From: Psychrobacter sp. P11G3
GTDB taxonomy: Bacteria; Pseudomonadota; Gammaproteobacteria; Pseudomonadales; Moraxellaceae
Assembly (NCBI RefSeq): GCF_001435845.1
Contig: NZ_CM003596.1
Coordinates: 806,001 to 870,000 of the forward strand
DNA length: 64,000 bases
Reading direction: 5' to 3'
Shown here: piece after piece, positions 2,567-8,117 of the stretch
Layout: each line of letters opens with the position of its first letter
How positions within the stretch are numbered: the first letter of the stretch is position 1
Notes under the pieces: model-generated
Database searches by the model: none
Told to the model about the DNA's origin: nothing
Seen by the model: the letters and a program-made list of their open reading frames with translations, nothing else
Made by a program: the position numbers and the translations under genes

Positions 2567-3274
2567 ATGACTGAATCTACCGACAGATTAGATAGTACTA
2601 AATTGAATAGCGTTGAATCGGCTAGTACTAATATTGCTGACAAGAAGGTACCTATAGCTGTGAGTAGTACTCATCAATCGATTGACTCTAAAACCATAAA
2701 TCATACGCCTAAAGCTATGTACGTGACTTCAGGCAACTCAATAACACCTAAAGATAAGTTGGACAAAATACCAAAAATGGTTGCCAATGGCAGTCGCGCT
2801 TTTATCTGGTATTTGTTGGCGATAATGGTATTAATACTTGATCAATGGACTAAGTGGTTGGCCCAAACCACATTAGCGTTCAATGACCCCGTACCGGTCA
2901 TTGAACCATTTCTCAACTGGACACTCGCTTATAACTATGGGGCAGCATTTAGCTTTTTAGCCAACGCTGGCGGTTGGCAGAAATGGTTTTTCTCAGGCGT
3001 AGCTTTTGTAATGGCTATCTTTTTAACGGTTTATTTAATCAAAGCGCCACGTGCAGCCAAGCTATTATCTATGGGGTTGGCCTTAATGCTTGGTGGTGCG
3101 ATTGGCAACTTAATCGATCGTTTAAGAATTGGTAAAGTGGTTGACTTTATCCATGTGCATTATGCTGATGTCTGGAATTATCCTCTTTTCAATGTTGCAG
3201 ATATAGGTGTCTGTGTCGGTGTCGCATTGATTATAATTGACATGATATTTTTAGAAAGTAAGCGTAATAAATAA
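2567..3274 (+). CDS. lspA: Lipoprotein signal peptidase LspA with N-terminal extension
   Basis: Inner-membrane aspartyl protease (signal peptidase II) that cleaves the signal peptide of prolipoproteins after lipidation. Both catalytic aspartates are visible: G-N-L-I-D-R (Asp184) and F-N-V-A-D (Asp212); the Y-G-A-A-F-S segment is also typical, and four membrane helices lie between residues 80 and 228. At 235 residues it is about 65-70 residues longer than the usual enzyme. The extra part is a hydrophilic Ser/Thr-rich N-terminus. The chosen ATG has an AAAGGA ribosome site 5-10 bases upstream, so the extension is probably translated, although Met51 and Met71 are possible starts. The usual downstream partners fkpB and ispH are absent. 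Confidence 0.92.
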   Translation: MTESTDRLDSTKLNSVESASTNIADKKVPIAVSSTHQSIDSKTINHTPKAMYVTSGNSITPKDKLDKIPKMVANGSRAFIWYLLAIMVLILDQWTKWLAQTTLAFNDPVPVIEPFLNWTLAYNYGAAFSFLANAGGWQKWFFSGVAFVMAIFLTVYLIKAPRAAKLLSMGLALMLGGAIGNLIDRLRIGKVVDFIHVHYADVWNYPLFNVADIGVCVGVALIIIDMIFLESKRNK

Positions 3275-3507
3275 GCACATTGATGCCGATTATCACAAAC
3301 AAAATGAACTAGCGTCGTATTCACTCTATACGGAAAAATACTTTTTATACTTGAGTATGTTTATAAAATGTGAACTGGAAGGTAATGTTACTTAGACAGG
3401 CTGGGCATTTGATGTATAGTGTCATTTGCATTTCACTATTTATCAATTTCTCAGCCTGTTTTTTTTCAGCCTACTTTTTGAACCACCACCCGGATATAAA
3501 TGTAACT
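3275..3507. other. Intergenic region after lspA, left edge of accessory region
   Basis: No gene is recognised. An open frame from a GTG at 3370 runs into the transporter gene, but its first 46 codons look like a random hydrophobic stretch and have no good ribosome site. An inverted repeat (ACAGGCTGG near 3396 and CAGCCTGTTTTTTTT near 3454) could be a long-loop terminator or a regulatory hairpin. This is the left border of the patchwork that ends at the broken epmC gene. Confidence 0.4.
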
Positions 3508-4344
3508 ATGAATAAAACAACTTTTAAAATATCGAAGATGGACTGCCCTTCGGAGGAAAACCTAATCCGAATGAAATTAGAGGGCCACTCGAATATTGAA
3601 CATCTTGAGTTCGACATTCCTAACCGTCAATTAACTGTGTTTCATCATGACAATATAGAAGGGATAGAGACTGCTATTCATGACCTAAAATTAGGAGACA
3701 CCCTACTCTCGACCGAAACCATTGACCCCTCTGATCCCAACAATAATTTTAAAATTGATGCTGACTCTAGTCACAAAAAAGATGCTGAGCAAAGAAAGCT
3801 ACTATGGATAGTGCTGGTCATTAACTTTGCTTTCTTTATTATTGAAATGAGCACGGGACTGATTTCTCGTTCGATGGGGTTGGTCGCCGACAGCTTAGAT
3901 ATGTTAGCAGATAGCTTGGTGTACGGAATTAGCTTATTTGCGGTCGGTGGAACGGTCATTAAGAAAAAACGGATTGCTAGAATTGCCGGATATTTTCAAA
4001 TTACGCTAGCGATTCTTGGTTTTTTAGAAGTACTAAGACGTTTCTTTGGCAATGAGCAGTTACCTGACTTTTCTACCATGATAGTCATATCGATTCTTGC
4101 GCTAATTGCAAACTTGATTTGCCTCTATTTACTACAAAAATCGAAAAGCAAAGAAGGAGAAGAAGCCCATATGCAAGCCAGTATGATTTTCACTTCAAAC
4201 GATGTGATTATCAATTTAGGGGTAATTGTTGCAGGGATTTTGGTTAATTGGTTACACTCTAGTACGCCTGATTTGATTATTGGTAGCATCGTATTTGCTT
4301 TAGTTATTCAGGGCGCCTTTAGAATATTGAAGTTGAGTAAGTAG
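3508..4344 (+). CDS. Cation diffusion facilitator transporter with N-terminal metal-binding-like domain
   Basis: Predicted inner-membrane divalent metal/proton antiporter. From the ATG at 3508 it has 278 residues. Residues 1-75 form a ferredoxin-like HMA-type domain with M-D-C-P-S-E-E (Cys13) in place of the usual MxCxxC. Residues 98-278 hold about six membrane helices of the CDF fold. The canonical HxxxD metal site of helix 2 reads D131-MLA-D135 in ADSLDMLAD, and helix 5 reads D232-VII-N236, so the metal site differs from the zinc-transporting HD-HD type. It lacks the long cytoplasmic C-terminal domain of full CDFs. The substrate cannot be told from sequence. It stands alone in a region of mobile-element debris. 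The start is uncertain because no clear ribosome site precedes it. Confidence 0.8.
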   Translation: MNKTTFKISKMDCPSEENLIRMKLEGHSNIEHLEFDIPNRQLTVFHHDNIEGIETAIHDLKLGDTLLSTETIDPSDPNNNFKIDADSSHKKDAEQRKLLWIVLVINFAFFIIEMSTGLISRSMGLVADSLDMLADSLVYGISLFAVGGTVIKKKRIARIAGYFQITLAILGFLEVLRRFFGNEQLPDFSTMIVISILALIANLICLYLLQKSKSKEGEEAHMQASMIFTSNDVIINLGVIVAGILVNWLHSSTPDLIIGSIVFALVIQGAFRILKLSK

Positions 4345-4730: not shown

Positions 4731-4786
4731 ATTTTGTGTAAGTATTTAATCTAAACGTCAGTTACACAGAATCTGGGATGGTCTCT
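4718..4786. mobile_element. IS256-like terminal inverted repeats without an internal gene (69 bp)
   Basis: The left end reads GAGACCTTCCTAAATTTTGT and the right end, in reverse complement, GAGACCATCCCAGATTCTGT. Both continue into GTAA. About 26 bp pair with four mismatches, and only some 18 bp separate them. The ends resemble those of IS256-family (mutator-type) elements, so this is either an internally deleted copy or a tiny non-autonomous derivative. It lies between a broken frame on the left and an IS630-type fragment on the right. No convincing 8-bp target duplication was found. Confidence 0.6.
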
Positions 4787-4936
4787 CGTATTCTTTGGTT
4801 GCCACCCTACAGCCCTGATCTAAATCCCATTGAAAAGAAGTGGGCACAGGCAAAATTTCTACGTCAAGGCTGGATGGAGAATAATCTACCTAAGCTGTTT
4901 CATGATATGGGTTGTATCTCTTTTATTCTAGACTGA
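4778..4936 (+). pseudogene. IS630-family transposase, C-terminal remnant
   Basis: A 52-codon frame reads LWLPPYSPDLNPIEKKWAQA, the hallmark DDE motif region (PPYSPDLNPIE, whose Glu is the third catalytic residue) of IS630/Tc1-mariner transposases. It then ends with a normal-looking C-terminus HDMGCISFILD. About 80-85% of the transposase, including the two catalytic aspartates, is missing. Its start lies inside the right inverted repeat of the IS256-like remnant, so one element truncated the other. Confidence 0.8.
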
Positions 4937-4973: not shown

Positions 4974-5183
4974 TTAGACTAGATCCTTAATATCTATATC
5001 CAATGCATCGCAAATATCATAGGCCTTTTTGAGAGTGACATTCTTCTCTCCACGCTCGATATTTCCCATATAACTTCGATCAATATCTGCTATCTCTGCC
5101 AGCACTTCTTGAGATATTCCTTTGCTTCTGCGCACATCACGGATACGCTTTCCAAAGGCTATCATGCGTTCATCTGTCTTCAT
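4974..5183 (-). CDS. Small XRE-family transcriptional regulator
   Basis: A 69-residue protein that is nearly all a helix-turn-helix domain. The core RIRDVRRSKGISQEVLAEIA is followed by DRSYMGNIERGEKNVTL, the typical XRE recognition helix and ERG turn. Its size and sequence style match controller (C) proteins of restriction-modification systems and the small regulators of toxin-antitoxin or defence cassettes. I chose the Met at 5183, preceded by GGTTGGTGAG; Met at 5168 or an upstream start at 5210 are alternatives. It is divergent from the zinc-ribbon gene at 5268, and the short shared intergenic region carries dyad symmetry. Autoregulation and control of the neighbour are inferred. Confidence 0.85.
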   Translation of the reverse strand: MKTDERMIAFGKRIRDVRRSKGISQEVLAEIADIDRSYMGNIERGEKNVTLKKAYDICDALDIDIKDLV

Positions 5184-5209
5184 CTCACCAACCACTGCTA
5201 AAAATAGCA

Positions 5210-5269
5210 ATACTCACAGTGGTGGGCTATAATATCCACGGGATATAGTCGGTATTATGAGGTGAGTAT
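5210..5269. promoter_or_regulatory. Divergent promoter/operator with nested inverted repeats
   Basis: ATACTCAC at 5210-5217 is exactly complementary to GTGAGTAT at 5262-5269. Between them lies a second imperfect dyad, CTATAATATCC (5227-5237) and GGATATAG (5241-5248). The plus strand has a perfect -10 box TATAAT (5228-5233) within this inner dyad, so a protein bound there would cover the start site of the 430-aa gene. The right outer arm overlaps the ribosome-binding site and start codon of that gene. The XRE protein is the obvious candidate ligand; this is inferred. Confidence 0.55.
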
Positions 5270-6560
5270 GAAAACAAAACTAGAGTATCAGCCAGATATA
5301 ACAGAAACTAATAAGCTGATCTGTGAGAGGTACTGGTTAAGAGAAGGCGATAAACGAAGTGGTTTTATATATACCTGTAAAGAAATAGGTCAAGAGTTTG
5401 ATGTTAAGCATCAGGATATACCTAGTATCGTTAAAATAAATGCTCATCTTGTCGTACTAGACTGCCAATGCATAGACTGCGGTACAACTAAGATTTGCTA
5501 TACTCGCTCACAGCTAACTCGATTGGATCTTATTAGATGGCGGTGTGATGATTGCAGGGCGGCGCTTGAAAAAAGAATGGATCAAGAGTACTTAGAGTAT
5601 CGTCTTAAACAAGACCGTTTAGCAGAAGAAAAGAGACAGACCGCTCTAGAGTACATCAATCAATGCCGAAGCATTCAATTAAGCAGTATTCCTTCAGTCA
5701 CTGAGCTTAACGATGTGGATAAACTTCTACTCGCAGCGACTGTAGAGAGCCTAGGGGCAGATAATATAAGGAATACAGTCTCTCTACGTGACAATTTATC
5801 ATTACCTTTATCACCGTTCTCTAAATTAGATGAAGAGATACTACAGCATCTTTTTAACCGAAATCTGCTCATACTCGCTTCTGAAAATAGCTACGAATAC
5901 GTAACTATCAACGAAGAAAAAGAGCTAGAGATAGATTTCTATCAAGCGATCTTTGAGTTTGCTTATAGTATTGAGAATCTTACTAAAATCTTGATAAACG
6001 CTAAATCTCAGAAAAATACCAGTGCTCTAGTAGCGAATGATCAATTTAAGAACTGGTGTGAAAAGTTACAGCTAGGAGAGTGTTTAAGCTACCTGATTAC
6101 TAGGTCAAGATTGAACTATCTAGCACCGCCTATTGGCGAAAAGCTAATTAGTATTCTCAGATCATGTTTAGCTGAATGCTCTGTATCAACCATGCATTAT
6201 ATCATTTGGAAGTCTGTGGAAAATGCTGCTGCATACGTGCAAAAACCAGGTATTACTCGAAAACATGCTTCAAATTCTGTTTCTGGTAATATAGAGAGAG
6301 TATTCAATAAAATATACAGTGGTAGTTGGAGTCACAATAAATCTTTTCGCGATGCTAGCCACCCTCAGTCTGCAATGGCCAAAATATTTTTTGATTATGT
6401 ATTTGCAGTAGATGATGGTGGTTTTCACCATACTCTTGATGAGCTATTCAGCCCATATAGGTCCCAAAAAACTTTAGAGCAAGTAAGTTACGCAACTCTA
6501 GGAGATGCTAGAAGTACGAATTATTCAGTCACAATAGCTCTTGATATTAAACAATCATGA
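5268..6560 (+). CDS. Uncharacterised 430-aa protein with a zinc-ribbon-like Cys cluster
   Basis: I do not recognise this family. The start is the ATG at 5268 with GAGGTGAG just upstream; a GTG two codons earlier is open. Residues 12-62 resemble a winged-helix segment. Residues 66-96 hold a Cys cluster (C66, C68, C71, C77, C93, C96) with two CxxC knuckles, typical of a zinc ribbon. Residues 98-135 form a charged coiled coil (EKRMDQEYLEYRLKQDRLAE). The remainder is a helix-rich domain with no known catalytic motif, ending in a segment with SHNKSFRDASHPQSA and DDGGFHHTLDELF. No signal peptide or membrane helix. It is paired divergently with a small XRE regulator and sits between transposon debris and an orphan antitoxin, a setting typical of defence or toxin-antitoxin cassettes. 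A function is not assigned. Confidence 0.75.
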   Translation: MKTKLEYQPDITETNKLICERYWLREGDKRSGFIYTCKEIGQEFDVKHQDIPSIVKINAHLVVLDCQCIDCGTTKICYTRSQLTRLDLIRWRCDDCRAALEKRMDQEYLEYRLKQDRLAEEKRQTALEYINQCRSIQLSSIPSVTELNDVDKLLLAATVESLGADNIRNTVSLRDNLSLPLSPFSKLDEEILQHLFNRNLLILASENSYEYVTINEEKELEIDFYQAIFEFAYSIENLTKILINAKSQKNTSALVANDQFKNWCEKLQLGECLSYLITRSRLNYLAPPIGEKLISILRSCLAECSVSTMHYIIWKSVENAAAYVQKPGITRKHASNSVSGNIERVFNKIYSGSWSHNKSFRDASHPQSAMAKIFFDYVFAVDDGGFHHTLDELFSPYRSQKTLEQVSYATLGDARSTNYSVTIALDIKQS

Positions 6561-6688: not shown

Positions 6689-6937
6689 ATGGAAGATTCT
6701 AAATTTGAAGCATCGATTACCGATGATCGTCCTATCCTCGTTAGCAAACAAGAAATAGAAAAGCGCCGCCGCATTAACTTTGATACTTTGGGCAGCTTCG
6801 CAGTCGATAATATTCCTATTAACCCAGATACTCAGCACATCTTTCAAGACTTTGAGGAAGGTAAAATTGCAACTAGCAAGGAAGTAAAAGCTTTGCTACA
6901 TGCTCACTATACTAAGATAGCGCTCGAAGATAATTAG
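6689..6937 (+). CDS. VbhA-family antitoxin (inhibitor of Fic AMP-transferase), orphan
   Basis: An 82-residue protein with AGGAG five bases before the ATG. Residues 19-28 read SKQEIEKRRR and align with LSEEEIEYRRR of Bartonella VbhA. The following helix has L-G-S-F-A-V-D-N at the place of the Fic-inhibitory motif (S/T)xxxE(G/N), and the C-terminal EEGKIATSKEV matches VGELETSDV. VbhA-type antitoxins block ATP binding of the Fic toxin VbhT through the motif Glu; here that residue is Asp40. No Fic reading frame (HPFxxGNGR) is present downstream or nearby. It may be a relic, an antitoxin acting on a Fic protein encoded elsewhere, or an anti-addiction gene. Confidence 0.82.
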   Translation: MEDSKFEASITDDRPILVSKQEIEKRRRINFDTLGSFAVDNIPINPDTQHIFQDFEEGKIATSKEVKALLHAHYTKIALEDN

Positions 6938-7688: not shown

Positions 7689-8117
7689 CTAGCATGTCAA
7701 CCTATAAGGAGATGTGTGCAGTTCATGCAGAGCACTGGCAAAAAATCCATGAGCGAATTCAATTCGAGCGGGTTCATTATTTTGAGCTGGAAAATATTCG
7801 GGTTCATCATTGCTACGAACCAATATAACTTGCTGATCAGCGAATAAAGTATTAAATAACTGTATGAGCCAATCGGTAGTTAATCGTTCGCTATCAAATA
7901 CCAATTCTGCTGTATGAGTATCGTCAGATTGAGTACTAGACAATTCTTGCCACTGACTTCTGCATTCGTTTAAATACTCATTTTTATCATAAGAGAGTAT
8001 ATTGCTAGATGAATTTTCAGTATGACTCCCTAACTGAGTAAGCTGTTGCAGCAATGAACTTGCTTCAGTAGAAGAAAGTAAATCAGAAAAATTCATTTTA
8101 TTATCGGATAGATTCAT
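7689..8117 (-). pseudogene. epmC: Elongation factor P hydroxylase EpmC, 3'-truncated
   Basis: EpmC hydroxylates the beta-lysylated lysine of translation factor EF-P. Residues 82-133 match the start of the family: LIQLFNTLFADQQVILVRSN, DEPEYFPA and FAHGFFASALHEL. In intact enzymes this leads into the metal site H-E-x-(S/A)-H-W and about 100 further residues. Here the frame departs after HEL into HTSPYRLTC and stops, so the HW half of the metal site and the C-terminal half are gone. The breakpoint is near 7715 and marks the right edge of the accessory region. Residues 1-75 are a Ser-rich extension absent from E. coli EpmC. Activity is very unlikely. Confidence 0.8.

Follow-up and report, generated by a model that had tools for sequence, protein, structure and literature searches.

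The described systems that come closest to the locus analysed here are the type II restriction-modification (R-M) systems governed by controller (C) proteins such as C.AhdI and C.BclI, the BrxR/WYL regulators, and the single-protein anti-phage systems, which are a known kind of defence. In a window of 64,000 nucleotides from Psychrobacter sp. P11G3 (the whole stretch of DNA analysed, to which all coordinates refer), the gene for a small C protein-like regulator of the XRE/HTH_3 type (here XRE; 69 aa, 4974..5183, minus strand) diverges from that for a 430-aa protein of an undescribed family (here BIG; 5268..6560, plus strand, from the ATG at 5268). XRE is like the type II C proteins in size, in its single helix-turn-helix (HTH) and in its best PDB matches, but its partner is not recognisable as a restriction enzyme or methyltransferase. 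BIG shares with the BrxR/WYL regulators an association with many different defence systems and possibly, by its winged-helix-like part, a winged fold, but differs in having no WYL match, a zinc ribbon and a small regulator of its own. It resembles the single-protein systems in that a single large protein, mobile and patchily distributed, is found close to defence genes, but no known catalytic domain is recognised in it.

The same gene pair is present on plasmid pP62BP1 as ORF32-ORF33 (BIG 35% and XRE 78% identical to those of the window), which the portion of the source available lists as a hypothetical protein and an XRE regulator with no function given (PMC3346939). The literature searched, in which subscription papers are thinly covered, yielded no functional description of the pair, either there or in the accessible portions of PMC6514802, PMC11411939 and PMC9122601. 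The genomic context gives good support to a controller-effector module that moves between genomes with a preference for the surroundings of defence genes, and makes BIG, on present evidence, a promising candidate for a bacterial immune protein of a new type.

Gene layout, linkage and mobility of the pair

The original prediction, made from the window's letters, described a 69-aa HTH protein and a 430-aa protein facing away from a shared promoter of 60 bp with nested dyads, and both open reading frames lie where it placed them. The dyads are likewise present; the length is not, since the XRE ATG at 5183 and the BIG ATG at 5268 leave 84 bp (5184..5267), a divergent intergenic region presumed to house both promoters and the operator dyads. 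An upstream TTG start would extend XRE to 78 aa and reduce the gap to about 60 bp. XRE takes its 69-70 aa form at all 24 compared loci (20 on genome contigs and four on plasmids), and the two start codons are there separated by 83-88 bp.

The expectation that homologues would keep the XRE partner is borne out across 105 Psychrobacter genomes, 26 of which hold BIG and 26 XRE, with both in 25 (Fisher p 7e-22 for genome-level co-occurrence). Counted by place, 30 of 31 XRE matches (E<=1e-15; the exception is in G024) face a BIG match, and 30 of 35 BIG places are paired with XRE. Four of the five unpaired places are partial: two are pieces at contig ends (G023:C34 and G093:C37) that look like the other halves of the paired G023:C29 and G093:C35, and remnants lie in G006 and G070. 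The fifth, G056:C5 (locus L065), is the one full-length BIG among these places without XRE. Genomes carry up to four BIG matches, fragments included, that of the window holding a second copy of 75% identity, and a copy 88.6% identical to the window BIG is found in another genus of the family (G117; locus L041, a metagenome bin). Homology to the window DNA at other sites ends near the XRE stop, and near either the BIG stop or an 82-aa open reading frame; it runs on beyond the pair at loci of the window's own site, and some other loci share more than the pair. These comparisons of sequence mark the pair as a mobile unit. A cassette of IS-like or integron-like type, bounded by fixed ends, was considered and rejected, no shared terminal repeats being seen where homology edges were compared.

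The flanks of the window copy conform in part to the IS end and orphan antitoxin that had been described. A remnant of an IS630 transposase is present at 4778..4936, plus strand (DDE_3 3.3e-7; transpos_IS630 1.6e-6, below cut-off). The antitoxin, which we take to mean the 82-aa frame (6689..6937, plus strand, found about 130 bp past BIG in a subset of loci), is not borne out by profile searches, in which this frame stays below the cut-off of every family of Pfam, NCBIfam, PADLOC and PHROGs. Relatives of the 82-aa frame occur in 20 of the 105 Psychrobacter genomes, seven of the 20 being without BIG.

The pair had also been placed between lspA and a broken core gene. The broken gene is confirmed as epmC, truncated to a 142-aa frame at the island edge (7689..8117, minus strand; EpmC 4.3e-12, profile positions 1-49 of 162). 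In seven of eight relatives read at the window site, rplQ, a tsaC-like gene, an epmC of 241-250 aa and yceD were identified by reading, and it follows from the intact epmC of these relatives that the window island interrupts the gene; in the eighth (L190) epmC is cut short near an island with an OLD-type ATPase, and the cut end looks identical in the window, L036, L038, L040 and L190. On this comparison epmC is an island hotspot. The other half of the placement requires amendment, as the window lspA is not the core-like copy among the three LspA matches of its genome and a CDF metal transporter lies between it and the pair; copies 95-100% identical to this lspA were found in 6 of 18 other genomes searched and, taken with the multiple LspA matches, indicate that it is mobile. 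We observed lspA followed by the CDF transporter, which has an HMA-like start, at 2567-4344, and the two are probably metal-resistance cargo, as in ISPpu12-like elements.

The regulator and the shared intergenic region

XRE consists of a single HTH domain in 69 aa and nothing more. It matches HTH_3 (3e-12) and the PADLOC family Control_protein (4.8e-18), and its nearest solved relatives in the PDB are C.AhdI (3.5e-15) and C.BclI (1.2e-12), so that it is a small single-HTH protein similar to known C proteins. The restriction endonuclease or methyltransferase that would accompany such a protein is not recognisable in the partner, BIG having no match of either kind in Pfam, NCBIfam, PADLOC or PHROGs. 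On these profile matches we class XRE as C-like, and do not file it as the C protein of an R-M system.

Two dyads lie in the 84-bp region. The first pairs ACCACTG with CAGTGGT (5191-5197 and 5217-5223; full arms 5188-5197/5217-5226), and the second, found by reading, is ATATCCACGGGATAT (ATATCC-ACG-GGATAT, 5232-5246); a TATAAT at 5228..5233 on the plus strand, likewise assigned by reading of the sequence, is the putative -10 element of the BIG promoter. The C-box recognised by C proteins is given as GACT-tat-AGTC in the portion of the source available (PMC4824078), and the XRE-BIG dyads resemble it at some loci and match it partly. In the window the C-box-like CGGGATATAGTCGG (5239-5252) overlaps the second dyad; this dyad over the putative BIG -10 becomes the near-palindrome CGGACTATAGTCGG at locus L060 and the palindrome CGGAGTATACTCCG at L063. 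A scan for palindromes of 12-16 bases with at most one mismatched pair was positive at these two of 15 loci only, and most of the other 13 keep the TATAGTC half.

Regulator and intergenic region are far more constant than the protein they adjoin. Among 144 locus pairs in which BIG identity is 30-50% (mean 41%), the mean identity is 83% for XRE and 83% for the intergenic region, and over all locus pairs the divergence of BIG and that of XRE are correlated with a Mantel r of 0.32 (p 0.009); this comparison left out L063, where XRE is divergent and the gene looks frameshifted, L065, which lacks XRE, and the partial copies L049, L050, L056 and L064. That XRE and promoter remain about 83% alike while BIG falls to about 41% suggests that XRE fits its DNA site more than it fits BIG, and argues for a controller rather than an antitoxin.

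Small XRE relatives on other plasmids also diverge from unrelated genes, with a gap of 84-108 bp in four of the six viewed (Moraxella, Enterobacter and two Acinetobacter). The relatives at L112, L114, L115 and L117 diverge from such unrelated genes at this distance of 84-108 bp, one of these loci adjoining TIR and CBASS genes, and these four loci suggest that the XRE family may be a reusable controller head.

Architecture, conservation and reach of the large protein

The cysteine cluster C66/C68/C71/C77/C93/C96, the coiled coil and the helical C-terminus first noticed in BIG are all present. The six cysteines are invariant in 38 close relatives; across 94 wider relatives C68, C71, C93 and C96 are near-invariant (0.98 weighted) and C66 and C77 are not, which points to a zinc site of the form CxxC...CxxC. 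A second AlphaFold2 model, built with the 94 sequences (pLDDT 90.1; residues 402-430 unreliable), comprises N-terminal helices, the zinc ribbon (residues 59-97; 5442..5558, plus strand, as for the parts that follow), a long helix or coiled coil (approximately residues 94-139; 5547..5684), a winged-helix-like part (residues 140-249; 5685..6014) and a conserved C-terminal helical domain (residues 258-400; 6039..6467). The last of these contains E271, Y275, K292, S305, H333, N336, W354 and R361, which together with the zinc cysteines have a weighted conservation of 0.88-0.98 in the 94 sequences; the most conserved polar residues beyond the zinc ribbon are those of the C-terminal domain. P0122, a diverged relative, has other residues at several of these positions, E271 and R361 included.

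No catalytic fold was recognised in BIG, and its zinc ribbon weakly resembles those of RNA polymerase (profile E 0.03). We compared R361-x3-H365 with the HEPN ribonuclease motif and rejected this assignment because the arrangement is local and not kept in the wider family. Of 18 comparisons with the window BIG, 16 give a dN/dS of 0.10-0.30 and two are saturated; the eight of the 18 that have dS > 1.2, rough values near saturation, give 0.10-0.19; BIG is, on these ratios, under purifying selection. Some members look mosaic on reading of the alignment. An 851-aa protein of Janthinobacterium (L199, 4231-6786) matches BIG residues 139-394 over its residues 584-838 (hhalign 98.9%), keeping the C-terminal half of BIG with the N-terminus replaced by a TPR-like region (weak TPR match, 7.6e-4).

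That the large protein fits no known family was upheld in all of the libraries used, BIG lying below every cut-off in Pfam, NCBIfam, PADLOC and PHROGs and giving no match to PDB sequences at E<=10 (phmmer). In PADLOC 2023 (PADLOC-DB 2.0.0) and NCBIfam 2026, the defence catalogues compared, BIG has no match at E<=1; three relatives have none in PADLOC at E<=0.1 and eight none at cut-off in NCBIfam. The WYL domain of Pfam has no match at E<=1 in BIG or 20 relatives, and no confident match to a housekeeping domain, which would have spoken against a defence cassette, was found for BIG.

A large protein set yielded 164 relatives at E<=1e-3, and among the 120 listed all that carry an organism name are Psychrobacter. 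Searching from distant relatives reaches Acinetobacter, Staphylococcus, Bacillus, Aeromonas, Vibrio and Photobacterium, and plasmid records add Exiguobacterium, Virgibacillus, Rossellomorea, Methylophaga, Pseudomonas, Oceanisphaera, Janthinobacterium and Streptomyces. BIG is rare, occurring in 34 of 299 genomes of the family (27 of the 34 Psychrobacter) and in 2 of 368 other genomes of the class, one of these two being a weak short match; neither BIG nor the Staphylococcus relative P0150 has a match at E<=1e-3 in 50,697 phage records. As judged against Pfam, NCBIfam, PADLOC-DB 2.0.0 and PHROGs, BIG belongs to an undescribed superfamily that extends to Acinetobacter, Bacilli, Vibrio and Streptomyces. 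The BIG relatives at L079-L084 lack this XRE beside them, and none of eight non-Psychrobacter plasmid records, whose gene tables are incomplete, lists a small XRE divergent from the BIG relative. Two of these loci, L082 and L084 (genus inferred as Acinetobacter), have common, ordinary-looking chromosomal neighbours and no XRE; part of what the original prediction had named as evidence against itself does appear here, outside the clade of the pair. Within Psychrobacter the pairing is near-constant. We also observed dndB about 5 kb from the Janthinobacterium relative, and the BREX gene brxL 3 kb away from that of Oceanisphaera.

Defence neighbourhoods and competing explanations

Within about 5 kb of the pair, 14 of 22 loci have a gene with a direct match to a defence profile or to McrC. 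These are GajA/GajB (Gabija; L039), type I restriction (L042, L057), type III restriction (L061), a type III methylase (L062), type IIG enzymes (L043, partial, and L044), HerA (L054 and L063, the latter also with a methylase, a Pycsar cyclase and a TIR effector), caspase-like proteins (L040, L055), OLD/AriA-like ATPases (L053, L057), a weak DrmC-like match (L052, 9e-11) and McrC (L051, PDB match 2.4e-23). The neighbours scanned were picked by eye, 15 of 20 matching at 1e-8 and, for L063, five of six. Beyond the 14, L047 and L059 hold homologues of scanned genes, as identified by duplicate removal; no defence neighbour was recognised for the window copy or at L038 (mercury genes by reading), L041 or L060 (Tn7-like genes by reading); and L048 and L065 were counted without a protein-by-protein scan. 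The window-site loci L033-L037, L046, L058 and L066 and the duplicate L045 were excluded from both the 22- and the 24-locus sets. The defence-type location that had been proposed is seen at these 14 loci and not at the window copy, which lies in no obvious defence island, its neighbours being the metal-transporter gene pair, the IS remnant and truncated epmC.

At E<=1e-20, 110 neighbour proteins (de-duplicated from 143) match 133 PADLOC families, against 12 families for 115 proteins from random loci (15 protein-family matches in all). These are counts of models, and dozens of GajA models can be hit by a single ATPase, which makes 133 against 12 an overstatement of the contrast in proteins. The control comprised 115 of 132 de-duplicated proteins from 17 random loci in six Psychrobacter genomes, taken in a seeded draw; 20 regions were listed, one that overlapped a BIG locus was dropped, 19 were fetched, and L135 and L136 were left out. 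Right flanks are common to L044, L047, L048 and L054, to L043, L052 and L059, and to the window, L038 and L040, and with hotspots recurring in this way fewer than 22 independent events underlie the 22 loci. Within these limits, of model counts and of loci that are not fully independent, BIG lies near defence genes more often than by chance; such nearness is itself common to many passengers, which counts against the defence reading.

Individual neighbourhoods hold further features. To the right of BIG at L044, L047, L048 and L054 lies a 1296-aa ATPase that is SMC/MukB-like by reading of its Walker A region; together with the small partners beside it, it may form an undescribed condensin-like system. 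Assignment of this MukB/JetC-like protein to Wadjet was rejected, as the L044 copy matches nothing in PADLOC at 1e-8 or in the PDB at 0.01. At L063 (9245-12539) a Pycsar cyclase, an E2-like protein and a TIR effector stand side by side, and Pycsar together with an E2 gene is, to our knowledge, an unusual mix.

Taken together, we favour, at a probability of roughly 0.55, the reading that XRE-BIG would be a horizontally moving module acting against mobile elements (phage or plasmid), with XRE as regulator and BIG as effector. The tight two-gene linkage, the presence of more than one copy in some genomes and the two BIG remnants without XRE would also suit a type II toxin-antitoxin pair in which BIG is the toxin and XRE its antitoxin, a layout that the original prediction had entertained. 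We regard this as distinctly unlikely: the genes are divergent and not in one operon at 24 of 24 compared loci, XRE is only an HTH domain of 69 aa and hardly tracks the divergence of BIG, and BIG relatives without this XRE comprise the full-length L065, L079-L084 and the eight plasmid records with incomplete gene tables; the constancy of XRE and its absence beside the distant relatives viewed leave that layout unsupported. BIG might instead be a transcription regulator of defence islands in the manner of BrxR, with XRE as its repressor and the islands doing the defending. The winged-helix-like part and zinc ribbon do suggest DNA binding, and in 48% of cases BrxR regulators are found together with defence systems according to the portion of the source available (PMC9122601), but this explanation too seems unlikely, given that most loci have different systems next to the pair, now on one side and now on the other, that BIG falls to 35-47% identity as XRE stays constant, that WYL is lacking in BIG and its 20 relatives, and that the top conserved polar residues outside the zinc ribbon lie in the C-terminal domain.

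The plasmid copies raise the question of a module that serves plasmid maintenance or the control of replication and can jump to chromosomes as well, in that the pair adjoins the origin region and rep-parA-parG in all four Psychrobacter plasmid records with BIG (iteron-like repeats in three of three inspected). R-M genes are present in the stretches viewed of three of these plasmids, with none there in pP32BP2, and on a plasmid with a 94% identical Rep the slot of the pair is filled by type I restriction genes (S subunit annotated, methylase by reading), so that the slot looks like cargo space; as no replication gene was recognised in the other neighbourhoods read, a maintenance role is improbable. 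Least probable, and to our minds very much so, is a neutral hitch-hiker whose host function is unrelated to defence: it would accommodate the window copy, with its lack of defence neighbours, and the relatives that stand singly in chromosomal surroundings of ordinary appearance (L082, L084), but purifying selection on BIG and the greater frequency of defence-model matches beside it than at random loci speak against it.

If the favoured reading of an anti-mobile-element module is followed, XRE, as a restriction-controller-like protein, would occupy the dyads in the 84 bp between the two genes and set the expression of BIG and of itself, which it would delay or cap in the way known for C proteins of R-M systems. 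The zinc ribbon, coiled coil and winged-helix-like part of BIG may recognise or bind nucleic acid, and the C-terminal helical domain with its eight conserved residues would carry the effector activity against invading DNA. A broader version, which we put forward tentatively and hold to be somewhat less probable, is that BIG founds a superfamily of anti-mobile-element effectors across Pseudomonadota, Bacillota and Actinomycetota, with interchangeable N-terminal sensors (the zinc ribbon with its coiled coil in some members, a TPR-like array in others) joined to a winged-helix-like part and to a C-terminal domain that contains a new active site (E271, H333, N336, R361), to which Psychrobacter would have added a restriction-style controller switch. 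With a promoter and a regulator that hardly vary, the many diverged BIG proteins offer a ready test set. If BIG does defend its hosts, a widespread unnamed protein superfamily would acquire a function, and the timing by controller proteins that is familiar from restriction systems would prove to extend to an effector of another kind.
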